Origin: Planctomycetota bacterium
GTDB taxonomy: Bacteria; Planctomycetota; Planctomycetia; Pirellulales; PLA5
DNA length: 64,000 bases
NCBI GenBank assembly: GCA_003576845.1
Contig: QEVJ01000009.1
Coordinates: forward strand, 1-64,000
Reading direction: 5' to 3'
Below, in pieces: positions 177 to 14,763 of the stretch. The notes below the pieces were generated by a model that did no database searches, had not been told where the DNA came from, and worked only from the letters and a program-made list of their open reading frames with translations. The translations under genes and the position numbers were made by a program. The stretch's first letter is position 1; every line of letters begins with the position of its first letter.

Positions 177-2042
177 CTAACGGCACGGCCGCGCCCCGAC
201 GATGGAAGGCGCGAGCGGATGCTCCAGTGCGGCCAAAGCGACGGTTGTGGGATGGCTGCCGGAGTTTCGACGGTGCGCGGCGTGACAGACGGCGGCCGCG
301 AGGACATAGAGTGCTTGGATGAGAACGCCCAACGCCACGTAGCCGGCGCCGTGGCTCTCGCCGAACCCATAACTGTGCAGCCCGGCGCCGAGCACGAAGT
401 TGACGCCGTACCAAGCCATGACGACGAGCGGGAAGCAGAGCACGGCCAGCGCGGCGAGACCGAATTGGTGGACCCACCCGGCGAAGCGAGCGTGTAGCAC
501 GGCGAGGTATCCGAGCAGCGTCACGAGGGCCCAGACTTCCTTGGGATCCCAACCCCAGAACCGCCCCCACGAGTAATCGGCCCACACGCCGCCCAAAATC
601 GTTCCGGCCGCGAGCAACAGCACGCCGAGTTGGATGGCCCGGTACGTAAGGTTGGTCAGATTGTCGATCGCGGCTTTGTTTGGGGAGCCGACCAAAAAGT
701 AGCCGAGCGCGATGTTGCCGAGGCCCAGGGCCAACGCTAGCGCCGCGTAGCTCAGCGTAATCGTCATCACGTGCGTGACGAGCCAGAAGTTGTTTCGCAA
801 CACGGGTTGGAGCGGCGCGATGCTGGCGTCGAGCACGACGGGGCTGTTGTCGGCGACGACGAGGGCGAGCGTCGTCACCGCGGCGGCAGCGGCAAGGACG
901 TACCTCTTGCGGTACAGCGCCTCTAGCACCATACCGAACAGCGCTACGCCGGCGGCCACGAACACGACCGATTCGTACATATTCGTAACGGGGGCGCGTC
1001 CCGAGATGATCACTCGCATGGCGAAACCGGCAATCAAAGCAACAACGCCCGCGCCGAAGGTCAGCCAACCGGCCGCGTCGGCAATTCGCCAGTGCGTCGC
1101 ATGGGCCAACAGCAACGACACGCAACTCACGAGGGTGAAGACCCAGGCGATGCGAAACGGGGCCCAGTCGTGGAAGGCAACTTCGAGGTCGACGATCGCC
1201 GCGTCCACCGACGCGGGCGAATCGGCGGCGATTGCGTCGCGGGCGGCGAAGAACCGTTGCGACGCCGCATTGAAATCGGCGGCCGAGCCGCGGAGGTATG
1301 CATTGCGGACGGCACGCAAAGCCGCTTGAGCCTCGCGCCGCTGTCCCGTTGGGTCGCTCGCGTCGTTCCAACGTGTCGTGAGCAGCGCCGCAGCCGTGGT
1401 CCAGGCATCCGCGTCGCTTCCCGATGGGGCCAGGAGAAACAGCCGCTTGCCCATCCGATGGTCCACGTAGGCGCGGAAACGATCGGCCAATTGCACCGCG
1501 TCCTGTTCGAGCTTCGTGAGTGGGGCTTCCTGCTTGGCAAGCTCCTGCGTCCAGCGGAGCAAGGAACTCTCTCGACCGGTGGCCGGCACGACGAGTTTGG
1601 CGGCATGGACTTCGACGGGCGAAACGAGCTTGCGCTGCGAATCCCATTTCAGTAGCCGCCGTAGTTCGAGGTTGTCGACGCGGAGCAACGCCGTCTGGTC
1701 CCACTTGTCGGGGCGATGCACGGCGAAGTAGTCGTTAGCGTCTGCGGGTGGATGCTCGCTCTGCGTCTCTGCTTCGGACCAGCCTTGCCAATCGAGCAGC
1801 AGCACCAGGTAGAACGCGCACGCATCGAGGTGCTGTCCGTCGATGGGATCGGTCATCTCCGCGCGATTGGCGAGTCCCCGCAATGTTTCGCGGGCAAGCG
1901 AATCGAGCGGCTTGACGCGGCCGCCGTCGAGGACCGGCGCGTTTCGCCAAGCTCGCCACGCAAACGCCTCGTCGCCGCGACTCGTCGGCGCGACGCCGAG
2001 CAGAACGAGCACTGCCAGGATGATCGAGTGGGCTTGTCGCAT
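177..2042 (-). CDS. ccsA: Cytochrome c biogenesis protein CcsA/ResC-like (haem handling, system II)
   Basis: A 621-residue membrane protein that, with ResB, would carry haem across the membrane and attach it to CXXCH cytochromes outside the cytoplasm. After a signal-like N-terminus (about 1-23) comes an unusually long soluble region to about residue 295, then several hydrophobic helices. The family signature is clear: a tryptophan-rich WWD-type segment ending WGWDPKE at about 496-502, plus candidate haem-ligand histidines at about 424 (VTHVM) and 556 (GLHSYGF). The ATG start lies 31 bases after the ResB stop on the same strand, so the two genes form an operon. It is divergent from the 14-haem cytochrome at 4414, a likely client. 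The N-terminal half has no recognised function. Confidence 0.9.
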   Translation of the reverse strand: MRQAHSIILAVLVLLGVAPTSRGDEAFAWRAWRNAPVLDGGRVKPLDSLARETLRGLANRAEMTDPIDGQHLDACAFYLVLLLDWQGWSEAETQSEHPPADANDYFAVHRPDKWDQTALLRVDNLELRRLLKWDSQRKLVSPVEVHAAKLVVPATGRESSLLRWTQELAKQEAPLTKLEQDAVQLADRFRAYVDHRMGKRLFLLAPSGSDADAWTTAAALLTTRWNDASDPTGQRREAQAALRAVRNAYLRGSAADFNAASQRFFAARDAIAADSPASVDAAIVDLEVAFHDWAPFRIAWVFTLVSCVSLLLAHATHWRIADAAGWLTFGAGVVALIAGFAMRVIISGRAPVTNMYESVVFVAAGVALFGMVLEALYRKRYVLAAAAAVTTLALVVADNSPVVLDASIAPLQPVLRNNFWLVTHVMTITLSYAALALALGLGNIALGYFLVGSPNKAAIDNLTNLTYRAIQLGVLLLAAGTILGGVWADYSWGRFWGWDPKEVWALVTLLGYLAVLHARFAGWVHQFGLAALAVLCFPLVVMAWYGVNFVLGAGLHSYGFGESHGAGYVALGVLIQALYVLAAAVCHAAHRRNSGSHPTTVALAALEHPLAPSIVGARPCR

Positions 2043-2073: not shown

Positions 2074-3933
2074 TCACGCGGCCCGCTGCTGGGACTCGGC
2101 GGCGGAATGGACGACCGGCGGTGGCACGGGCGGGGTCAACGATTGCGCGTCGCGCCGGCCGAATGCACGAGGAACGTTCGCGAAGAAGTACGCCCGCATG
2201 TAGAACATCGCGAAGATACCGCCGCAGATCATCGCGCTGCCGAGGTACTTGAGGAAACGGCCTGGATCGTAAGCGACGGCGAGCACGCTGGCCGATTTGG
2301 CGTGGCCGGCGTCCTCGAAGCTGGATTGGTAGAACGTGAACTTGCCGTACGACAGCGGCCGGTTCATCGAAATGTCGAACGACTGCTTGTCGTCGGCTTG
2401 CGGGTCCATCACCTCGACGGCGCTGGAGAAGGTCGCATTGCCCACGCGGCCGGGGTTTTGCGTCCGCGTGAAGTCGACCAGCCGCAGCGTGAAACCGAGC
2501 GGACGGCGGGCGTAATCGAACGAGAGCGTGAGCGGACCCTGGTCCGACGGAATCGTACATGTGCCGTGCAACGGATCGCCGCGGCGGAGCCAGATGCGCC
2601 GCGTCGTTTCACCAGTCGATACTTCCACAAGCGCCGCGGCTTCGGGCGGGTTTTTCTGGCGCGGCGAGGACGCGACCGGCTTGAACCGGGCATCGTGACG
2701 CGCGCGGGGAAGGTAGCGGCGGACCGAGAGCTTGAAGCCTCCGACGAGTTGCAGGTCGCCGCCCTCGCGAACCAATTGCGGTTCGGAATACGCTCCGCCT
2801 GCCGCCGCGCGGCAAAACAGCCGGCCGTCCGTGGTCTGCATGAATGCCGCGCCGGACTCGGGCTTCGCGTCGGCGTGGTGATACCAGAACTTCGCGCGGC
2901 AAGGCTTGCCGTGGACTCCGTCGAGGTTCAGCAGCGGCCGCTTGGCGAACGCGACCTGGCGCGTCGGCTTCGAATTGCCGGGTTCGTACACCAGCAACTC
3001 GAGCATCGGATTGCGCGCCACGGCGCCGCGGGACTCGAAACGTCCGCTTGCGTTTGGGCGTGCGTTGGGCAGATATTCGACAATCTCGACTTGGACGCCG
3101 GCTTTCCCAACGGCAACTTTCTTGCCGACGTGTTCGGCGACGTCGATCCGTTGCATCTCCCCGTCGCAGTGGAGCGACAGGACGCCGGCCGCGACGGAAG
3201 CGATCGGCGGAGGATCGAGGAAGTCCTGTTCCATCGACTTCTCGACGATCGGCAGCATCGTGTACATCGTGGGACCAATCACGGCTTCGCCGCCGTAGAT
3301 GTTTCCGGCAAGCCACTCTTCGGCGACGACTTTGCCGTGCGCGTCGGCAAGGGCAAGCTGCAATGCCGGTCCGTCGAACAAACGGTCGTCGGCAACCCAT
3401 TCCATGTGCTCGAGGGCGTGGCGATAGAACTTGAGCACTTTGACGCCCAGTCCCTTCTCGACGCCGAAATCCAATTCGTGGCCGTCTTGCCAGTCGCCGG
3501 GACCGGGCGCGAAAGCCAATTCGGTCGACAGCGTTCCCGAGGGCGTTTTTCTCACGACCTGGATCAAACTCTCGTCGCGGACGAGCATTTCGCTGGTCCC
3601 GTCGCCCTCGCGGAGCACGACCTGTCCCTCCGACCCGTGCATGAACGTCTGCACCGCGCCCGCTAGCAGCACCAGCAGGCCGGCGTGCGTGACGACGAAC
3701 CCCGCGTGGCGTCGTTTCCACGGCCAGCGGCTCAATGCCGCCGCGAGGATGTTGACGGCGAGTGCGGCGAGCAGGGCAATGAACCAGGTGCTGCCATAGA
3801 CGTGCCAGGCGGCGAATTCGCGGCCGCGATTGGCTTCGAGAAACGTCGCCGTCGCCAGGATGCCGCCGAGCAGCAGCAACAGCCCAACGGCGAGCTTGAG
3901 CGACCCCAGAATGTTAAGCAGCGCTCGCAGCAT
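2074..3933 (-). CDS. resB: Cytochrome c biogenesis protein ResB/Ccs1
   Basis: A 619-residue partner of CcsA in system II cytochrome c maturation, thought to hold apocytochrome and haem at the outer face of the membrane. Three hydrophobic helices are visible in the first 100 residues (about 10-30, 48-66, 77-95), then a large soluble domain, then a last helix near 565-590 (YLGSAMICGGIFAMFYM), the ResB topology. The segment with MNRPLSYGKFTFYQSSF before the last helix is typical of the family. It is the first gene of a two-gene minus-strand operon with ccsA 31 bases downstream. The ATG at 3931-3933 gives a normal membrane-anchor N-terminus. Confidence 0.88.
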   Translation of the reverse strand: MLRALLNILGSLKLAVGLLLLLGGILATATFLEANRGREFAAWHVYGSTWFIALLAALAVNILAAALSRWPWKRRHAGFVVTHAGLLVLLAGAVQTFMHGSEGQVVLREGDGTSEMLVRDESLIQVVRKTPSGTLSTELAFAPGPGDWQDGHELDFGVEKGLGVKVLKFYRHALEHMEWVADDRLFDGPALQLALADAHGKVVAEEWLAGNIYGGEAVIGPTMYTMLPIVEKSMEQDFLDPPPIASVAAGVLSLHCDGEMQRIDVAEHVGKKVAVGKAGVQVEIVEYLPNARPNASGRFESRGAVARNPMLELLVYEPGNSKPTRQVAFAKRPLLNLDGVHGKPCRAKFWYHHADAKPESGAAFMQTTDGRLFCRAAAGGAYSEPQLVREGGDLQLVGGFKLSVRRYLPRARHDARFKPVASSPRQKNPPEAAALVEVSTGETTRRIWLRRGDPLHGTCTIPSDQGPLTLSFDYARRPLGFTLRLVDFTRTQNPGRVGNATFSSAVEVMDPQADDKQSFDISMNRPLSYGKFTFYQSSFEDAGHAKSASVLAVAYDPGRFLKYLGSAMICGGIFAMFYMRAYFFANVPRAFGRRDAQSLTPPVPPPVVHSAAESQQRAA

Positions 3934-4413
3934 GGTCGGTTTACCGCTGCCGGGGAAGTCGACGGCAAATTGCAGACGGCGTGTTTATCGGCCGCGAGTT
4001 TGACGGTCTTTCGCTTTTTCGCGAGTTTGGGGGAAACGGAAGCGGGGCAATCTGGGGATTCCACGCTCGCAAGTCCATCGGACGATCAACGGTCCAGCCG
4101 TCCTTTCGGTGGCGGCCGATAGCCGGCGACTCCGCGACCGTCAACCCGCGAAATTGCCGCGTAGAGGGCAAAACTGTCAAGATTGGTATGCGCGGCGTGC
4201 GAATCTAACCGCTGAGGCGTCTTGTCGGGGGGAACATCCGCCAGACGCCGCCGATGGGAATGCGCGCCGTCTGACGTTTTCGCCTTCACTTGGACGTTGA
4301 TTGCGTCGGCACGGTTGTCCGCGGCGATGGAGCGCCGCATGGACCGCACCTGTCGGCCGATTTGCGAGCGCAGATTGAAATACCCGGTCTTTGTTTAACC
4401 GGGTGCAGACTCC
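3934..4413. other. Divergent intergenic region between resB and the 14-haem cytochrome
   Basis: 480 bases without a credible gene; short open frames here show no protein-like composition. It must hold the promoters for resB (leftward) and the cytochrome (rightward), but I could not identify a convincing -35/-10 pair. The only clear structure is the hairpin at 4382-4404, listed separately. Confidence 0.5.
4382..4404 (+). promoter_or_regulatory. Hairpin immediately upstream of the 14-haem cytochrome start
   Basis: ACCCGGT (4382-4388) and ACCGGGT (4398-4404) form a perfect 7-bp stem with a 9-base A/T-rich loop, ending 9 bases before the ATG at 4414. It could be an operator dyad or an mRNA hairpin that modulates translation; the sequence alone does not decide. 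Confidence 0.4.
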
Positions 4414-5964
4414 ATGGATGGAGATCGTTCCGTGCAAAGCTGCCGCCGTCGTCGGCTGCGACTGGTCGCCTGGTCGCTGGCCGGAATGCTGTTGGCGACG
4501 TTGTTCGTCATTTTGCCGTCGTGCCGTTCGCAGAACGGGCAGGGCCGGCGCACCGACACGGAACTCAAGCCGGGTTGGCCGCAACCGAACCGGACTTTCA
4601 AGCAGGTATCGCTGTCGGAAATCCGCGCGGAGATACCCGTCGTCGCCGGCGCCGAGTACGTCAACGACGACGAGCTCTGCATGCAGTGCCACAAGACGTA
4701 TGTCGAGACGTTCCAACACAACGTCCACCGCGGCATCAATAAAGGACAATCGTGCGAGGCCTGCCACGGTCCGGCCAGCAAGCACTTGGAAACGCGCGGC
4801 CGCGAACCGGGGATGATCCTGAACTTCAAGAAGATGACGCCGGCACAATCGGCCGAAGCGTGTCTGAAGTGCCACGAGCAGAACGCCTGCTCGCCCGGCG
4901 CGCAGTGGCGCACCTCGAAGCACGCGCATGCCAACCTGTCCTGTATCAGTTGCCACACGGCGCACTACAACGTGCCGCCGGGAACGAAGGCCACGACCGG
5001 TCTGGGAGAGGTGACGCAGACGCAGCGCTCCGGCGCGCATGCGACGCCCGGCGCAAACGTCACCGCCGACTCACAGGTCACGTTCGTCAAGTTCGAGCAG
5101 CCGCCGGACATCGAAACGCTGCGGGCGAACTCGAACAACCTGGGCGCGGTTTCTCCCGATACGTGCTTACGTTGCCACGGCGAGATGAAGAACCTGCTGG
5201 AGATCGCCGGACCGCACCAGATCGGCGGCGCGAACGACTTCAACTGCACGACGTGCCACAATCCGCACGGCAACATCGTCGAGCACTCGCGCAAAGACCT
5301 GTGCTTGAGCTGCCACAAGCAGGATTCGCCGACGATGGCCTGGCACGCTTCGACGCACAACCTGGCGGGCGTGGCGTGTACGGACTGTCACAATCCGCAT
5401 CCGCACGCCGGAGTCCGGCGGTTCATCACCACCAGCGGCGTCGACTTGGAAAACACGCATCTCTCGCGGCAAAAACGCCGGCCGATGTCCGTGCAGGAGC
5501 CGGAGGCGTGCTACAAGTGCCACCAGAACATCTTCGCACAAACGCATCTGCCGTCGCACCATCCGATTCGCGAGGGCAAGATGGTCTGTTCCGATTGCCA
5601 CGATCCGCACGGGCAGCTCGAAGGCAACCTCAAGGCGGAAAGCAAGAACCTGCTCTGCTGGAAGTGTCACGCCGACAAGCAAGGTCCGTTTGCTTACGAG
5701 CATCCGCCGGTCACCGAAGACTGCGGCATCTGCCACGAACCGCACGGCACGGTGACGAACAACCTGTTGAAGCAACCGGCCACGTTCCTGTGCTTGCGTT
5801 GCCACGTCGGCCACCGCGACGGCGACCACGGCGGCGGCGCGCGGTTGAACATCGACGCGGTGCCGCAACTCCGCAAGGGTTTTTATACGGATTGCACGAC
5901 TTGCCACTCGCAGATCCACGGTAGCGATCTGCCCACGCCGCACTTTCCTGCCATGTTGAGATAA
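4414..5964 (+). CDS. 14-haem c-type cytochrome (MtrA/DmsE-like), putative lipoprotein
   Basis: A 516-residue exported electron carrier. Fourteen CXXCH haem motifs start near residues 89, 114, 150, 177, 251, 278, 297, 322, 366, 392, 415, 437, 460 and 494, so nearly the whole mature chain is haem-binding. Arg-rich residues 11-16 and a hydrophobic stretch precede LPSC at 34-37, a plausible lipobox. MtrA/PioA/DmsE relatives are decahaem proteins of roughly 300-350 residues; this one is longer and has four more haems. The next gene, 61 bases downstream, encodes a long predicted outer-membrane barrel, the arrangement of porin-cytochrome conduits. The divergent ResB/CcsA pair could mature it. NrfB-like or other multihaem families are alternatives. 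Confidence 0.85.
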   Translation: MDGDRSVQSCRRRRLRLVAWSLAGMLLATLFVILPSCRSQNGQGRRTDTELKPGWPQPNRTFKQVSLSEIRAEIPVVAGAEYVNDDELCMQCHKTYVETFQHNVHRGINKGQSCEACHGPASKHLETRGREPGMILNFKKMTPAQSAEACLKCHEQNACSPGAQWRTSKHAHANLSCISCHTAHYNVPPGTKATTGLGEVTQTQRSGAHATPGANVTADSQVTFVKFEQPPDIETLRANSNNLGAVSPDTCLRCHGEMKNLLEIAGPHQIGGANDFNCTTCHNPHGNIVEHSRKDLCLSCHKQDSPTMAWHASTHNLAGVACTDCHNPHPHAGVRRFITTSGVDLENTHLSRQKRRPMSVQEPEACYKCHQNIFAQTHLPSHHPIREGKMVCSDCHDPHGQLEGNLKAESKNLLCWKCHADKQGPFAYEHPPVTEDCGICHEPHGTVTNNLLKQPATFLCLRCHVGHRDGDHGGGARLNIDAVPQLRKGFYTDCTTCHSQIHGSDLPTPHFPAMLR

Positions 5965-6025
5965 CGGCTCGCTCGGGCGGCTGCGCGTCGCCCGTCGTCG
6001 AGCGAATTATGGGGGGGCCCATACG

Positions 6026-8284
6026 GTGTCACGCCGGAACCAGGCGACGGTCGTCGTCGCGCTCTGTTTATTTGCTGGAACGGTCCGCGCCGGCGATGTT
6101 TTGCCGGCGGTCGGCTCGTCCGAGTATTTCGACCAAGGCACAAGTTCGGCCGTCGAGTTGACTCCGGTCGTCGTCCAGGACGCGCCGGAACCGGCCGAAG
6201 CGGGCGAGAACGCCGCTACGCAGACCGACGCGCCTATGGCGGAAAGCTCGGAAGACCCCTATTTCCGCTTCTACGATCCGCCCTACGAACCGTGGTTCGC
6301 CGCCCGGTTCGGCTGGTGGGGCGTGGGCAAGTCGGGCGCGCGCTCCGGCACCGGCGAGTGGCAGGGCCTGGAGTCGTCGCCATTCTGGGACGTCGACGGC
6401 ATCCGCAGCGACGGTTCGCGGACCATCGACTTCTTCGCCACCGGCGTCGAAAGCGAATCGACGGACGCCGGCGTGTACTATTACGGCGGTCCGGGACTGA
6501 CGATCGACTTCGACTACGACCGGTTCATTCACCGAATCGGACACGACCCGCTGATTCAGCCCGAAGGCGGGTTCTTCGACCCGCCACTACCCAACAACAC
6601 GCCGGGCTACGTGCTCTACGGCACGGACTTGAACGTCGGCCAGGACTACGCGATCCGCGTGCAAAAGATCGAGGCGGATTTCAAGGGCAACCTCAACGAC
6701 GACGTCAAGTGGGGTCTGAAAGTGTGGGGCATGCGGAAAGACGGCACCCGCATGGTCAACTCGACGCAGCACTGCTTCGCGCTCACCCCGGCGCCCGGCG
6801 GCCGCACCTGCCACGTCGTCAGCCAAGGCCAACAGATCGACTGGCTCACCACCGAAGTCGAGCCGAGCATTCGAGCGCGGTTCGACTGGCTGACGGTCGA
6901 GTATTCTCGCACGATGCGGTCGTTCCAGCAGAACGACCAGACGGTGCTCGCCAACTTCACGGCGATCAACGCCACTTACGGTCTGCAAGGCGTTGGCGCG
7001 TACGCCGTCGTGCCCGAGAACTACACGGAAATCGACCGCGTCAAGATGAACGCGCAACTCAACGAGTATAACGAGCTGTACGCGCTAGCTTTCGTCGGCA
7101 ACACGCACAACGACTTCCGCGACTCGGATCGGAAGTTCTACGGCGGCGACGTGCGGCTCACGAACACGTCTCGCGATGCGCTGCGGCTCACGGCTTATGC
7201 CAAGTCGTTCGTCCAAAACAACTCCGCCGACACCATCCCGCTCGACGTCCGCTATCCGGCGCAGGCGAACCTCTGGCGCGAGAGCCAAACGCCGCAGACG
7301 ATCTACAATCCGGACTCATATTACCTGGGTCTGGCCGACCGCGAAACGCACCGGGCCGGCTTTCACGGCCGGTGGCATCCGCACGACGACTACGACGGCG
7401 CGCCGTCGTGGCTCGCGGTCACCGGCGGTTACGAATACAAGATCATCGAGCGCTCGAACGTGACCTATTTCCTCGACGCCCTGCCGGCGGTATTCACCCA
7501 GCCGGACTCGAACACCCACATGTTCTTCGTGGGTCTCGAACAGGACTGGTCCCGGGAGTTCGACACCTATCTCCGCTACCGCGTGCTCGATACCGATTGG
7601 CCGCTGTTGGGCGTCACGCACCGGCAGCAGTTGAGCCTCGACGCGGCGATCAACAGCAACCAGCCCGAGCACGAAGACCGGATCGAGATCGGCGGCAACT
7701 GGTCGCCGACCAACAACTTCATGCTCAATGCGTCGCTGTGGATTCAGAATCGCTACAACCACTCCGAATTCGTCAACTTCGACGAGGACAATTACCCGGT
7801 CGTTCTGAGCGGCTGGTACGCGCCGACGGATCGGTGGTCGATGTCGGCGGGCGCGGCGACGTTCTCGAACTGGATCGACCAGGACGTGACGCTGGGACGC
7901 GAAAACGGCGTGCCGGGGACCGAGCTGACCGCGTTCACGTCGCGATGGAACTACGGCGGGCGGGCCGACGTTCTGAATCTGGGCACGACGTACCTGTGGA
8001 ACGACCGCGTGCAGTTGATCGGCGGCTTCGAGTACGTGCGGAGTTGGAACCGGTTCACCGCGCCGCCCGCCCCGGCGACCGCGATCGGCGGATACGACGA
8101 TTTGCCGGCCTACAGCCAGGTGCGCGTCAACACGTATCGCTTTACTGCCGGCGTGGACTACACGCTGACCGAACTGACGACGTGCTTCTTCCGCTACAAC
8201 TACTTCGACTACGACGACATCGCGTCGCCGTTCAACGCGGGAACGGCGCACCTCTTGTTGGGCGGCATAAGCGCCGTGTACTAA
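6026..8284 (+). CDS. Predicted outer-membrane beta-barrel, MtrB/PioB-like partner of the multihaem cytochrome
   Basis: A 752-residue exported protein with a signal peptide (about 1-23, cut near RAGD). The rest is rich in alternating aromatic/polar stretches, Tyr, Trp, Asn and Asp, and ends in an aromatic strand (LLLGGISAVY), as in transmembrane beta-barrels. Length is close to MtrB/PioB barrels that sheath a multihaem cytochrome through the outer membrane. The GTG start is preferred because a run of seven G at 6011-6017 gives a ribosome site at good distance; an ATG at 6009 is out of frame. The gene lies 61 bases after the 14-haem cytochrome. The shared family with MtrB is inferred from context and composition; a different porin is possible. 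Confidence 0.7.
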   Translation: MSRRNQATVVVALCLFAGTVRAGDVLPAVGSSEYFDQGTSSAVELTPVVVQDAPEPAEAGENAATQTDAPMAESSEDPYFRFYDPPYEPWFAARFGWWGVGKSGARSGTGEWQGLESSPFWDVDGIRSDGSRTIDFFATGVESESTDAGVYYYGGPGLTIDFDYDRFIHRIGHDPLIQPEGGFFDPPLPNNTPGYVLYGTDLNVGQDYAIRVQKIEADFKGNLNDDVKWGLKVWGMRKDGTRMVNSTQHCFALTPAPGGRTCHVVSQGQQIDWLTTEVEPSIRARFDWLTVEYSRTMRSFQQNDQTVLANFTAINATYGLQGVGAYAVVPENYTEIDRVKMNAQLNEYNELYALAFVGNTHNDFRDSDRKFYGGDVRLTNTSRDALRLTAYAKSFVQNNSADTIPLDVRYPAQANLWRESQTPQTIYNPDSYYLGLADRETHRAGFHGRWHPHDDYDGAPSWLAVTGGYEYKIIERSNVTYFLDALPAVFTQPDSNTHMFFVGLEQDWSREFDTYLRYRVLDTDWPLLGVTHRQQLSLDAAINSNQPEHEDRIEIGGNWSPTNNFMLNASLWIQNRYNHSEFVNFDEDNYPVVLSGWYAPTDRWSMSAGAATFSNWIDQDVTLGRENGVPGTELTAFTSRWNYGGRADVLNLGTTYLWNDRVQLIGGFEYVRSWNRFTAPPAPATAIGGYDDLPAYSQVRVNTYRFTAGVDYTLTELTTCFFRYNYFDYDDIASPFNAGTAHLLLGGISAVY

Positions 8285-8406: not shown

Positions 8407-8509
8407 CCTATCCCGAAACCCAACGCTGTAGGAGGCGAATCCTCTCGCCGATCGCACCGGTGAGCGATTTCTCGGCGAAGGGATTCGCCTCCTACAATTT
8501 TGGGATAGG
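8407..8509. repeat. MITE/REP-like imperfect palindrome, family A copy 1
   Basis: Left arm CCTATCCCGAAA (8407-8418) then TGTAGGAGGCGAATCC (8427-8442); right arm GGATTCGCCTCCTACA (8481-8496) then TTTTGGGATAGG (8498-8509). The arms are inverted copies of about 40 bases with few mismatches. The core recurs at 17479-17547 and 42719-42790. The upstream GTG at 8460, a possible start for the next gene, falls inside this element and is therefore unlikely to be used. Confidence 0.8.
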
Positions 8510-8543
8510 CACTTTGTGCCGTTCCGTCCGCGGAGCCGCCGAG

Positions 8544-9887
8544 ATGTTTCGTCGTAGCATGCTTGCGCTTGCGATCGCCGCCGCGTTGATCGCGTGCACG
8601 ATCGGTACGCCGACGTGTTGGGCCGCTGCGTCCGACGAGGCGACAACGGCGCTCGCAAGGAAAGTCGCGGAGCTCATCGGGCAACTCGACGCGCCGCGCT
8701 TGGCGGACCGCGATGCCGCCGAGAAGGTCCTAATGGCTCTGGGTCCCGAGGCGCTCGACGTTCTGCCGCGCGGCGAAGCGAAGCACTCCGCTGAGGTCAA
8801 GCAGCGTCTGGCCCGCGTGCGGCGACAGTTGGAACTTGCGTTTGCCAAGTCCGCGGCGAAGGCCTCGCTCATCACGCTTGCCGACGCCGAGCGACCGCTG
8901 TCGGAAGTGCTTGCGGCGATCGCGAAACAGTCCGGAAACCCGCTCGTCGACGGTCGCAAACGCGGTCCGGAAGGCAAGCCGCCCGCCGATCCGCGGATTC
9001 GCGTCGCGTTCGACAAGACGCCATTCTGGCCGGCGCTGGACGCGACTCTCGACGCAGCCGGCGCATCGCTGGAAGTGCGCGACGCTCAAGGGGACGATCC
9101 GCTGCGCCTGGTCGTCGTCGAGCGCGGCGAAACGGCAAAGCCGCGAGCGAGCGACGCCGTTTACCGCGGGCCGCTGCGGTTTGCGGTGGTCGGCGCCGAC
9201 GTGAAGCGCGCGGCGGACGACGCGGAAACTCTCGCTCGAATCGTCCTCAAAGCGGCTTGGGAACCGCGTCTCAAGCCGATCGCGCTGAGTCTGGCCGCCA
9301 AGGACCTGAGCGCCGTCGACGACCAGCAACGCCCGCTCCGCATTGCCAGTGCCGAAGCGCAATGGGCCACGTCGTCGCTCGGCGGGCAAGGGGCCATGCG
9401 GCTCACCCTGCCGTTTGTGTTGGCTCGCGGCGATGCCAAGAGTCTCGCGGTTCGCGGGCGTATGGCGGCCCTATTGGCCGGGGCGAACGTCGCGTTCCGC
9501 TTCGAGCGGCTCAGCGAGACGCGGCCCGGCGCGGCGGTGGCGTCGCAGAAGATGGGCGACGCAACGGTGCGGCTCGAATCGTTTCGCCGGGTGGGCGGAC
9601 GCTGGCTCGCCCGCGTCCGCGTGATCTACGACAACCCGCAGGAGGCGGTGCAGTCGCACTACGACTGGCTCTACGAGAGCCGGGCCACACTGACCGCGGT
9701 CACGGAGCAGCGAAAACCGGTGGAATACGACTCTCAGGCCGCCGAGGATGGCGTGATCGCGACGTACGCGTTCGCCGCCGAGGATGCCGACAAGCCGGGC
9801 GAACTCACGCTGGTCTACTCTACGCCCGCGGTCATCATGACCGTGCCGTTCGAGTTCGAGTTCGCCGACATTGCGTTGCCGCGATGA
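8544..9887 (+). CDS. Exported protein of unknown function
   Basis: A 447-residue protein whose family I do not recognise. The ATG at 8544 is chosen because it gives a clean signal peptide (MFRRSMLALAIAAALIACTIG, cleavage near WAAASD); the in-frame GTG at 8460 lies in a repeat. The mature protein begins with a helical, charged segment containing LDAPRLADRDAAEKVLMALGPEALDVL, which resembles the short helix-pair segments (HEAT-like) common in planctomycete exported proteins, followed by a mixed alpha/beta body and a beta-rich C-terminus without cysteines. It stands alone: a palindromic repeat upstream and a convergent AAA ATPase gene 16 bases downstream. Confidence 0.75.
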   Translation: MFRRSMLALAIAAALIACTIGTPTCWAAASDEATTALARKVAELIGQLDAPRLADRDAAEKVLMALGPEALDVLPRGEAKHSAEVKQRLARVRRQLELAFAKSAAKASLITLADAERPLSEVLAAIAKQSGNPLVDGRKRGPEGKPPADPRIRVAFDKTPFWPALDATLDAAGASLEVRDAQGDDPLRLVVVERGETAKPRASDAVYRGPLRFAVVGADVKRAADDAETLARIVLKAAWEPRLKPIALSLAAKDLSAVDDQQRPLRIASAEAQWATSSLGGQGAMRLTLPFVLARGDAKSLAVRGRMAALLAGANVAFRFERLSETRPGAAVASQKMGDATVRLESFRRVGGRWLARVRVIYDNPQEAVQSHYDWLYESRATLTAVTEQRKPVEYDSQAAEDGVIATYAFAAEDADKPGELTLVYSTPAVIMTVPFEFEFADIALPR

Positions 9888-10890: not shown

Positions 10891-11649
10891 ATGACCCAGC
10901 GCTATTTCTGCGACGCGGCAATCACGGGCTCTCGGGCGGCGCTGTCAGGCGGGGAAGCCCAGCACCTGGCCCGCGTGATGCGCGCCCGCGCGGGCGACGT
11001 GGTTGTGCTGTTCGACGGCAGCGGGGCGGAGTTCTCGGCCAGGATCGACCGGATCGGTAAATCGGCCGTCGAATTGAGCATCGTCGAGCGCCGCGAGGTC
11101 AATCGGGAGTTGCCTTTCTCATTGACGCTCGCCGTAGCTCTGCCGAAGGGCGACCGGCAACGGTGGCTGGTCGAAAAGGCGGTCGAACTCGGGGTGACGC
11201 GGCTCGTGCCGCTCGTTACCGCTCGCGGCGTCGCCGATGGACGAGCGGCGGTCGATCGCCTTCGCCGCGCGGTGATTGAAGCCTCGAAGCAATGCGGCCG
11301 GAATCGCTTGATGGACATCGCCGAGCCGCGGCGGTGGAGCGACGTTGCCGCCGATTCGGCCGGCGACGGCGCGAGCCGGCTTTTCGCGCATCCGACCGGC
11401 GCCACCGCTAGTGACTCCGGCGAGACGATGACGCCGACACAGGCTCGCGGCGTCGTCATTGCAATCGGTCCCGAAGGGGGCTGGACCGAGGAAGAGGCCG
11501 CGCTCGCGCGCTCGAACGATTGGCGGTTCGTCGACCTCGGCCCGCGAATTCTCCGCGTGGAAACGGCGGCGATTGCTATCGCAAGTTACGTCTCGCTCGC
11601 GGCTTCAGGCACATCAGTAGGCGCGAATGCGCTCGCGTCGCCGCAATAG
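10891..11649 (+). CDS. rsmE: 16S rRNA (uracil1498-N3)-methyltransferase RsmE
   Basis: A 252-residue SPOUT methyltransferase that modifies U1498 of 16S rRNA using S-adenosylmethionine. The knot motifs are intact: VVIAIGPEGGWTEEE at about 188-202 and DLGPRILRVETAAI at about 215-228. The N-terminal PUA-like domain begins MTQRYFCD, so the ATG at 10891 is the natural start; an upstream in-frame start at 10807 would add an unrelated tail. Its last 36 bases overlap the 3' end of the convergent alpha-amylase gene, and the final residues (SVGANALASPQ) are probably a dispensable extension. Confidence 0.92.
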   Translation: MTQRYFCDAAITGSRAALSGGEAQHLARVMRARAGDVVVLFDGSGAEFSARIDRIGKSAVELSIVERREVNRELPFSLTLAVALPKGDRQRWLVEKAVELGVTRLVPLVTARGVADGRAAVDRLRRAVIEASKQCGRNRLMDIAEPRRWSDVAADSAGDGASRLFAHPTGATASDSGETMTPTQARGVVIAIGPEGGWTEEEAALARSNDWRFVDLGPRILRVETAAIAIASYVSLAASGTSVGANALASPQ

Positions 11650-14600
11650 CACGATCGCCGCCGCGAGCAACGCGAGCGTCCGCGCCGTTGGTTCCGGTAC
11701 GGGCGCCGACGAAAGCGCAAATTCGCCGCCGCTGGAATGCCCGAGCCGCGTCTGCAACGTTGCTAAATCGGCGAGCGTTGCGAACCCATCGCCGTCGAAA
11801 TCGCCGCCGGCCCAGCCCGTCGCGCCGCCGAATCCCCGGGCGAGCATCGCGGCGTCGGACGAGTCGACCAGGCCGTCGAGGTTCGCGTCGCCGGGTACGG
11901 TCGAAAAGAGCGTGCCGATCAACAGTTGCGTGTCGGCGTCCGTGAGCGCGCCGTCGCCATTGAGGTCGAGCAACCAGGTTGGCGCTCCACCGAGCTGCGA
12001 CCGCAGAAAGTCGATGTCGGCGGCATCGGCGACGCCGCTTGCGTCCACGTCGCCGCGGCGGCGCAAGGCGGCTCGATACGCATCGCGCGCCGCCGGACCG
12101 ACGGAAGTTGACAGGTACGGGCTGGCGAGCGCGAACAAGTCGTCGTTGTCGACGAGGCCGTCTCCATCGGCGTCGGCGGCGGCGGAGAACTCCGTGTTGC
12201 GGCTATAAAGCACCGTCTCGAACGCGGCGACGTCGGCCGGCTCGAACCCGCCGTTGTGGTCGAGGTCGCCGATGCCTGCGCCGAAGATCGTCGACGTGAA
12301 CTGCCCCGGCAGGCGGAGGACGCTTCGGTTGCCCGTCGGCTCGAAGGAGACGACCGTCAGCACGTGGTTGCCGTGCGCGAGGCCCGAGAAGTCGCGGGTG
12401 AACAGGTCGCGGTCGATCTGATTGGCACGATTCGCGGAGCCGACCATTGCCGCGACTTCTTCGTCCGAGAGCGCCGCGGGCAGGTCGAGCAAGACGTGAA
12501 CGCTGTCGGCGGTCTGGTCGAGCGAGCGGACGGCTGCGCGACGATTTTCGTTTACGCCGGTCTGGATCGGGGCGAAGCCGTCGAGCGTCGACTCCGGCGG
12601 CAGGCGATCGACGAAAATCGCCTTCTTGAAACTGCTATACGCGGCCGGACCGCCGTCGTCGCGATGCCGAAACGCGATTGCTTCGAGAAAATGCACGCCT
12701 TCCGAGAGGCCGACGGTGCTAATTGTCTGCCGAAACTCGCCGTCGCCGCCCGTGTAGAGATCGCTGTGCTTGGTGGTGAAGTTCTCAAAGCCGTACGACA
12801 CGCCGCCGGGCGTGCGAAAGTCGATCTGCCCATTGCCGTTCACGTCGCGGCCTCCGTCGAGCTTGATGAGGGCGTTGTCGCCGTCGGCATTACGGTCGCG
12901 GATCGAGCCGAGCAGGTTGACTTCGATCGTTTGCAAGCTGGCGGTGAACGAATCGGCCGTAATGACGTGTAGGTCGGTCAAGCGCCGCGTGCCATTCGTG
13001 CCGGCCGTCGGGTCGGGATCGCTGAGGACTTGCGAAACATTCGTGAGTTGGAGACCCGACGGCGCTTGCGGCGTCGCCAAGCCGTAGATCAAGTAACCGC
13101 GGTCGCCGCCGTTGTTGGGTTTGACCGTGATGTTTACTTTCGACTGGCACTCGAAGCAGTCGTTGAACACCTGAAGCACTTTGGGAATGTTCGCGTCGCC
13201 TTCGGCATTGCCCGTGAGTTCGACGAGGTACGTTCCCCAGGGGAAATCGACGTCGACGGTCCGCTGGCTGTAGTGGTTGTCCATGCGATTGCTGAGCACA
13301 ACCAGCGCCGAGTTCGACCGCTCGTAAACGTAGATCTCCTTTTCCAGCCACCGCTCGCGGAAGTTGCCGCGGCCGTGCGTATTGCGGATTTCGACGAGCC
13401 GCTGGATCGTGTCGCCGTACAGCCCGCCGAGCGCGTCGCCGCGTCCGTCCTTGGGAAAGTCGCGATTGGCGCCGAACTCCTTGCCGTTGAAGTACACGAC
13501 CGCGTTGCCCGGGTGCATGAGCATGTAGGCATGGGCGACGTTGTTGAGCGCCGGGCCGAACGAGTCGTGGCTCTGCACGAACATCACGCCGTTGGACCCG
13601 TTGTGCCGGCCGTCGTCGTGGAAGTCCAAGCCGGCGCTCACGACGTTTCGCCAGTCGTTCTGAAAGCCGTTGCCCGTCAGATTGCTCTGGAACGCAAAGA
13701 ACTGGGCAAAGTCGAGCACGTCGCGATTGCCGCCGACGCGGCCGGGGTCGCTCAGGTCGATGTCCTTGCGGATGAACGATTCGAGGTATTCGCGGTTGCC
13801 GTCGAACACCTCGCTGAAGCTGAACACGTCGCGGCGGCTGCCGTCGAGGTGGTTCCGCGTCGAAGCGCGATAGACCGCGCGGTCGAAGTAGTTGAGCACC
13901 CACGGCTCCATGTGCTTGGCCGCGTCGATGCGAAACCCGTCGACGCCGACGGTCTGCACCATCCACTGGGCGTAGCGCATCAACAGGCCCATCGCGTTTT
14001 CGCTCACCGGGTCGCCGGAGAGCGGGTTCGCCGCGTTGAACGGATAGATCGCGATGTTCGACTCTCCAGTCGTCGGATCGAACACGAAGATCGGCGTCTG
14101 CTGCCGGTCTGGATAGAACCGGCGGTTGTTTTCGTCGGGCACGTTGGCGAGGCGGCCGTTCGACGCCGTCGTTCCGGTGGGAATGTTGTTCGCAAAGCCG
14201 GGCACGGGATGGCGGATGTATTGCAAATTCCGCGAATGGTCGATGTCGATGAGTCCCGAGAGCCGTCCGTCGAGATCGCCGGAGGCAAACGCGGAATGAA
14301 AATCGCCGTCCACCGCGCCCGGCGCGGTGAGGACGAAGCCGGGATATCCGCCCGAGGCTTGAAAGCCGGGCGTGCCGAGGTCGGCGAACCCGTTGTGGTT
14401 GGCGACGAAGTCGACGTACAAATCGCCGCCGGCGCGATGCAGCACGCGGGCCAGGCGCTTGAGTCCGGTCTCGGTGCCGTAAAGCGTCGGGCTCCCCGGC
14501 GAGCCGAGATCGAAGCGGTCGTAGACGTCGTAGCCGACGGAGAAGTTGCTCGATTCCGCGCGACCCGGCGGGGGCAGCCAAAGCTGGCCGTAACCCGCCG

Positions 14601-14763
14601 CCCATACGTCCGGCACGCGGTCTTCCATCGTGGCGTAGCTGCCGTCGAACCATTGGAGGAACGCTGGCGGCGAAACGTCGGCGGCGCGTACGCTCGGCGA
14701 TGCCAGTGCTAGCAGTAAAGTCGCGATGAGGCGAAGCAGTGGGCGAGGCGAAGTCATGCTCAT
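11614..14763 (-). CDS. Secreted GH13 alpha-amylase with dockerin-type repeats and PEP-CTERM anchor
   Basis: A 1049-residue extracellular starch-degrading enzyme. A signal peptide (about 1-28, ending RAAD) is followed by a GH13 barrel: region I DFVANHN (118-123), nucleophile Asp280 in DGFRIDAAKH, acid/base Glu318 in FSFSEVFDGN and region IV Asp400 in FVQSHDSFG. Two beta-rich domains follow to about residue 830, then EF-hand/dockerin-like calcium loops (DLDHNGGFEPAD, DADGDGLVDNDD, DVDASGVADAAD, DLNGDGALTDAD, DANLDGLVDSSD, DFDGDGFATLAD). The C-terminus has VPEPT, a hydrophobic helix and RRRERIR, a PEP-CTERM sorting tail. The 3' end overlaps rsmE by 36 bases tail to tail. Confidence 0.93.
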   Translation of the reverse strand: MSMTSPRPLLRLIATLLLALASPSVRAADVSPPAFLQWFDGSYATMEDRVPDVWAAGYGQLWLPPPGRAESSNFSVGYDVYDRFDLGSPGSPTLYGTETGLKRLARVLHRAGGDLYVDFVANHNGFADLGTPGFQASGGYPGFVLTAPGAVDGDFHSAFASGDLDGRLSGLIDIDHSRNLQYIRHPVPGFANNIPTGTTASNGRLANVPDENNRRFYPDRQQTPIFVFDPTTGESNIAIYPFNAANPLSGDPVSENAMGLLMRYAQWMVQTVGVDGFRIDAAKHMEPWVLNYFDRAVYRASTRNHLDGSRRDVFSFSEVFDGNREYLESFIRKDIDLSDPGRVGGNRDVLDFAQFFAFQSNLTGNGFQNDWRNVVSAGLDFHDDGRHNGSNGVMFVQSHDSFGPALNNVAHAYMLMHPGNAVVYFNGKEFGANRDFPKDGRGDALGGLYGDTIQRLVEIRNTHGRGNFRERWLEKEIYVYERSNSALVVLSNRMDNHYSQRTVDVDFPWGTYLVELTGNAEGDANIPKVLQVFNDCFECQSKVNITVKPNNGGDRGYLIYGLATPQAPSGLQLTNVSQVLSDPDPTAGTNGTRRLTDLHVITADSFTASLQTIEVNLLGSIRDRNADGDNALIKLDGGRDVNGNGQIDFRTPGGVSYGFENFTTKHSDLYTGGDGEFRQTISTVGLSEGVHFLEAIAFRHRDDGGPAAYSSFKKAIFVDRLPPESTLDGFAPIQTGVNENRRAAVRSLDQTADSVHVLLDLPAALSDEEVAAMVGSANRANQIDRDLFTRDFSGLAHGNHVLTVVSFEPTGNRSVLRLPGQFTSTIFGAGIGDLDHNGGFEPADVAAFETVLYSRNTEFSAAADADGDGLVDNDDLFALASPYLSTSVGPAARDAYRAALRRRGDVDASGVADAADIDFLRSQLGGAPTWLLDLNGDGALTDADTQLLIGTLFSTVPGDANLDGLVDSSDAAMLARGFGGATGWAGGDFDGDGFATLADLATLQTRLGHSSGGEFALSSAPVPEPTARTLALLAAAIVLLRRRERIRAY

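Follow-up and report, generated by a model that had tools for sequence, protein, structure and literature searches.

Do two adjacent genes of a planctomycete encode a wire that carries electrons through the outer membrane, and why would its cytochrome hold fourteen haem motifs when MtrA, a known protein of this kind, holds ten? The question is raised by the first 64,000 nucleotides of contig QEVJ01000009.1 (assembly GCA_003576845.1, order Pirellulales), a stretch that we call the window, in which the gene of a multihaem c-type cytochrome is followed by the gene of a barrel protein. An initial annotation, made from the DNA letters, had rightly guessed a planctomycete host and had read the pair as a porin-cytochrome conduit. 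We conclude, with a probability of about 80%, that the pair forms a trans-outer-membrane electron conduit in which the cytochrome sits inside the barrel as an insulated haem wire. The sequences indicate that tandem repetition of an internal block, haems 3-6, has brought the wire from 10 haems to 14.

Two adjacent genes and one solved complex

The cytochrome has 14 CXXCH motifs in 516 residues, as first described; with its residues shuffled the count averages 0.13 and never exceeds 2. Among the other open frames of the window that are 80 residues or longer, none contains more than two. LPS-C37, a lipobox-like stretch, closes the signal sequence of the cytochrome, and in the family rows compared a cysteine of the lipoprotein type follows the signal sequence. 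Sixteen histidines outside the CXXCH motifs are kept in 17-18 of 18 relatives, so that a second axial ligand (bis-His) would be possible for all 14 haems. A profile built from five planctomycete sequences finds MtrA in the solved complex PDB 6r2q (6r2q_A) with E 1.9e-47, and with E 1.9e-84 once 10-haem relatives join the profile. When the AlphaFold2 model of the cytochrome is the query, Foldseek returns 6r2q_A as its sole significant match (E 1.1e-9), and alignment of the two with VIA-align gives Z 9.8 across residues 272-508. The molecule name of 6r2q chain A in the search output is wrong ("Cystathionine beta-synthase"), so name searches would miss MtrA.

The 752-residue product encoded 61 bases further on, from a GTG start, had been called barrel-like, and the description is sound. 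A Pfam scan gives it no family, and a profile from 18 barrels finds nothing among PDB sequences. Its model (pLDDT 69, pTM 0.63) has 26 long strands, counting one short-strand pair as one; Foldseek ranks MtrB (6r2q_B) first at E 4.7e-20, with the next match at 5e-9, and structural alignment to 6r2q_B gives Z 23.6 across 558 residues against 15.7 for the next barrel. Both partners lead to the same solved complex, the cytochrome to MtrA and the barrel to MtrB, and the proposal of a conduit is supported to that extent: the single-chain results are a barrel fold and an MtrA-like cytochrome. The genes also travel together. The barrel occurs in 18 of 397 genomes of the order and lies next to a multihaem cytochrome in all 17 that have upstream sequence (the window and 16 others). 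Even samples of the phylum yielded the conduit only from this genome, and the relatives compared here were drawn from class and order samples.

We infer from these matches that the two proteins form a complex, with the barrel in the outer membrane and the cytochrome threaded through it as MtrA is within MtrB, for which orientation and dimensions have been described (PMC7198977). At the outer mouth would then be the C-terminal haems (11-14), which correspond to haems 7-10 of MtrA, and the lipid-anchored N-terminal end would be in the periplasm. Through such a conduit these bacteria can probably pass electrons to, or take them from, extracellular material.

The parallel to MtrAB and PioAB drawn by the initial annotation stands for fold and not for closest kinship. 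Fold and partner agree with MtrAB, whereas sequence puts the pair near OmcK-OmcL (GSU2203-GSU2204) of Geobacter sulfurreducens, with homologues in HotSeep-1, which is the nearest named family for both genes. There too a lipoprotein cytochrome precedes a barrel with a Cys...CysHis motif; unlike that system, the window has 14 haems in place of 10, proteins that fall under the equivalog cut-offs, and a more widely spaced barrel motif. OmcK has been described as extracellular (PMC10553843); the match to MtrA speaks instead for a wire enclosed by the barrel. The OmcK and OmcL genes of Geobacter rise on the iron oxides hematite and magnetite (PMC4070692), which we count in favour of a conduit. To MtrA-MtrB of Shewanella the likeness lies in the MtrA-like cytochrome and the MtrB-like barrel of 26 strands; the differences are four more haems, a lipoprotein cytochrome, no MtrC/OmcA found, and a barrel missed by TIGR03509.

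Several observations weigh against a conduit of this type. In NCBIfam the barrel matches only NF041027 (OmcL/GSU2204), with 162.1 bits (E 2.2e-47) where the cut-off is 350; all 18 barrels of the order match it at E < 0.01, all under the cut-off. The search against MtrB/PioB families that the initial annotation had proposed gave no match to TIGR03509 or to PF11854, and MtrB/PioB membership by sequence was rejected for want of a model match. Of ten barrels that neighbour 10-haem cytochromes elsewhere, TIGR03509 accepts seven, and the two from delta-proteobacteria pass NF041027. The cytochrome narrowly misses the OmcK model NF041028 (GSU2203 decahaem; 314.5 bits, cut-off 325), which an 18-haem relative (L022) passes at 331.9 bits, and its AlphaFold2 model has low confidence (pLDDT 62, pTM 0.43). 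The donor-type cytochromes of this genome lie on a contig other than the conduit's, unlinked to it, and we found no experiments on members of this planctomycete group in the literature.

Origin of the additional haems

The four haems by which the cytochrome had been said to exceed decahaem MtrA are present, and their origin can now be added. A profile of twelve 10-haem proteins aligns to the window cytochrome in the order H1-H4, H5-H6, H3-H4, H5-H10, and global alignment with 10-haem relatives places the insertion at window haems 3-6, so that one tetrahaem block (haem 3-6) appears twice. The alignment of the two copies scores 117, against 50 +/- 9 and a maximum of 111 in 300 shuffles with CXXCH positions fixed, and in the 18-haem cytochrome of L022 the block appears three times. 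Because of this duplication the protein has 14 motifs and not the ten that define the MtrA/DmsE superfamily. A fused N-terminal domain as the source of the extra haems was rejected, since the profile order and the alignment put the repeat inside the wire.

In a scan of named genomes, the six top distinct-protein matches are all planctomycete, with 14 or 18 motifs; the next-best matches from other phyla have nearly all 10, and the weaker ones include unrelated larger cytochromes. Of the 17 genomes of the order with upstream sequence, fourteen have a 14-motif cytochrome next to the barrel; in the other three the count is 19, 20, and at least 18 across a frameshift. None has 10. Within this one cytochrome family, 20 motifs are found at L165:6238-8292, 19 at L166:826-2715 and 18 at L022:8254-10077; in L165 and L166 one or two haems were gained singly, apart from the tetrahaem blocks. 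In the barrel tree the three order members with the largest cytochromes form one clade (99/97) separate from the window, and L022 has no settled placement, so growth past 14 haems occurred at least once. Throughout, the barrel domain keeps to 619-706 residues, alongside cytochromes of 14-20 haems. These proteins are a natural series of electron wires within a family; the number of four-haem blocks is the main difference among them while barrel size stays constant, and the relation of wire length to periplasm width becomes directly testable.

Where would the additional haems lie? A second haem 3-6 block would lengthen the wire, and with a barrel domain of about MtrB size, constant in the family, and MtrA oriented as it is in 6r2q, the added part of the chain probably projects into the periplasm as an overhang that reaches further toward the inner membrane. 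The opposite has been proposed: in 2014 Shi et al. described two-gene conduits with 12-14 haem cytochromes, including that of the planctomycete Kuenenia, and suggested that longer periplasmic cytochromes extend outward and dispense with a surface cytochrome such as MtrC (PMC4245776). The absence of MtrC and OmcA, first remarked for the window, extends to the whole genome, where the top TIGR03507 score is 17.2 bits against a cut-off of 209.3, which is noise. An outward extension would fit that absence; however, the inserted block is near the N-terminal end, which is the periplasmic side in MtrA (PMC7198977), and the C-terminal end of the 14-haem forms aligns to the outer end of MtrA without insertion. 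We therefore consider an outward extension improbable. The genome may still encode a surface cytochrome unrelated to MtrC/OmcA. The two-gene Pcc clusters of Kuenenia and Anaeromyxobacter (12-14 haems) resemble the window in having two genes, many haems and no surface cytochrome, and Ignavibacterium IALB_1838 (14 haems) in its two genes and many haems (PMC4245776); their cytochromes, compared by description only, differ in having 338-400 residues.

Donors, acceptors and the direction of flow

In five relatives (L020, L021, L022, L157 and L158) the conduit adjoins NapC/NrfH-like cytochromes of 11-12 haems and c554-like cytochromes of 4 haems. Also beside relatives' conduits are proteins of 9 and 11 haems with a C-terminal cytochrome-b-like membrane domain (L020:3956-8440 and L021:16420-18765). 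The window's genome encodes homologues of both the NapC-like and the c554-like type on contig C15; the NapC-like protein shares 57-60% identity with its counterparts in L157 and L158. They lie in a region (L015) where cytochromes of three kinds, NapC-like with 11 haems, 9-haem, and c554-like with 4 haems, are close to Cytochrom_C_asm (CcsA/CcmF-type) genes. This second cytochrome region is possibly the donor side of the conduit. The likely route would lead from quinol to the NapC-like 11-haem cytochrome of the inner membrane, then to the c554-like 4-haem shuttle, to the 14-haem wire, and on to an acceptor outside. Other entries in our partial list of multihaem proteins in this genome are an 8-haem cytochrome distantly similar to hydrazine dehydrogenase (L016:8751-10457, minus strand, contig C29) and an 850-residue protein in which an 8-haem cytochrome is joined to HEAT and TPR repeats (L017:4740-7289, minus strand, contig C228).

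Conduits of the MtrAB fold operate in either direction, as MtoAB and PioAB illustrate, and the electrons could also run inward here, from Fe(II), Mn(II) or partner cells to the quinone pool or an oxidase. An oxidase would find its place in this genome, which probably respires oxygen, judging by a 5-haem ActA-like protein within an alternative-complex-III-like cluster (L018). On the other side stand the NapC/NrfH-like and cytochrome-b-fused proteins beside relatives' conduits, types usually found in quinol oxidation, and the rise of OmcKL on Fe(III) minerals in Geobacter, although neither settles the direction. We regard inward flow as possible and hold it to be the less probable direction.

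A narrower use of the conduit would be to feed one specific extracellular reductase, as DmsEF feeds DMSO reductase, in place of minerals or cells. The cytochrome does pass the DmsE-family model TIGR03508 (260.9 bits, cut-off 192.2), but that model also accepts MtrA-like proteins, and we noticed no molybdenum reductase next to the conduit, either in the window or in relatives; a dedicated reductase is very unlikely. With a trans-membrane conduit as the preferred reading, this would be a non-anammox planctomycete group whose electron acceptors or donors may be solid or carried on cells. Anammox bacteria deliver electrons to electrodes (PMC7188810), and porin-cytochrome genes have been listed for planctomycete metagenome-assembled genomes (PMC10732223). 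The literature searched, with many subscription papers outside reach, holds no direct report on 14-haem MtrA conduits or on extracellular electron transfer in Pirellulales. As far as it shows, what is new here is an OmcKL-type conduit in this order, its block-wise growth to 14 and more haems, a conserved barrel motif of variable spacing, and a linked lyase pair.

A haem-site-like motif and the maturation genes

The barrel has a motif of its own, C250...C262-H263, in the loop that joins strands 7 and 8 in the model. Odd-to-even loops of the model are mostly long and even-to-odd turns short, a pattern by which this loop should face outside. All 20 barrels compared retain the two cysteines and the histidine, with 2-29 residues separating the cysteines; the motif, C(x)nCH, is absent from 16 barrels that neighbour 10-haem cytochromes in other phyla. 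At the place where OmcL (NF041027) is defined by CXXCH the window barrel has CX11CH, while L024, L163, L025 and L026 have CXXCH itself.

A covalent haem on this motif is plausible. The rival, a disulfide-closed loop or some other site, seems to us evenly balanced. The spacing of the motif spans a wider range than in known haem-attachment motifs, and the family is labelled a CXXCH-containing (seleno)protein (PMC13188914), which is unusual for haem attachment. Yet the histidine after the second cysteine never varies, the loss of the first cysteine in L024 and L163 is offset by a nearer one that forms a plain CXXCH, and haem motifs within porin loops have been described for GM18_3465 (PMC4245776).

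Divergent from the conduit, as first annotated, are ResB and CcsA, the latter outside the interval 2074-8284 to which the initial annotation applied. The description of these genes as the cytochrome's own gains support from relatives, for ResB and/or CcsA stand beside the conduit in eight other loci, fused in one of them. A congener (G001, 92% complete) is without the conduit, and its best match to the window ResB reaches just 22 bits, in an open reading frame of fused-CcsBA size; the window's own genome has a similar frame on contig C2 and five Cytochrom_C_asm places in total. By this comparison, with an incomplete G001, the window pair looks tied to the conduit and not housekeeping, and it probably serves haem attachment for the conduit. 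Wolinella likewise has extra cytochrome c synthases tied to particular cytochromes, the dedicated System II lyase isoenzymes CcsA1 for CX15CH and NrfI for CXXCK (PMC12285233); in the window, unlike there, ResB and CcsA are separate proteins. Taken as a whole, one could picture a conduit that grows in four-haem steps (10, 14, 18) and whose barrel bears a haem of its own at the outer mouth, on the variable-spacing motif, which a haem lyase inherited along with the conduit attaches; barrel and wire together would then need no surface cytochrome. We think this tentative picture rather doubtful.

Table 1. Features of the conduit locus, in window coordinates.
Feature	Position	Strand	Evidence
14-haem c-type cytochrome, lipoprotein, putative wire (MtrA/DmsE/OmcK relative)	4414..5964	+	14 CXXCH; TIGR03508; 6r2q_A by sequence and Foldseek
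Lipobox Cys37, likely lipid anchor	4522..4524	+	Invariant in family alignment; Cys after signal sequence in family rows
Tetrahaem block, first copy (window haems 3-6)	4846..5286	+	Profile order; missing from 10-haem relatives in alignment; copy-to-copy score
Tetrahaem block, second copy (window haems 7-10)	5287..5619	+	Profile order; copy-to-copy score
Predicted 26-strand outer-membrane barrel (MtrB fold, OmcL/GSU2204 relative)	6026..8284	+	NF041027 below cut-off; model; 6r2q_B
C250-x11-C262-H263, haem-attachment-like motif, barrel loop predicted extracellular	6773..6814	+	Two Cys and His in 20/20 barrels; loop of strands 7/8
ResB, System II cytochrome c maturation	2074..3933	-	PF05140 E 8.2e-25; homologues beside relatives' conduits
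CcsA/CcsB, System II cytochrome c maturation	177..2042	-	PF01578 E 5.5e-31; TIGR03144 E 5e-46, below its cut-off; homologues beside relatives' conduits

The 475-residue open reading frame at 8460-9887 was rejected as a conduit component, as it has no homologue beside other conduits and no family match. Further along, on the minus strand at 11614-14763, the window encodes a 1049-residue secreted protein that resembles alpha-amylases and carries both dockerin type I repeats and a PEP-CTERM-like tail.

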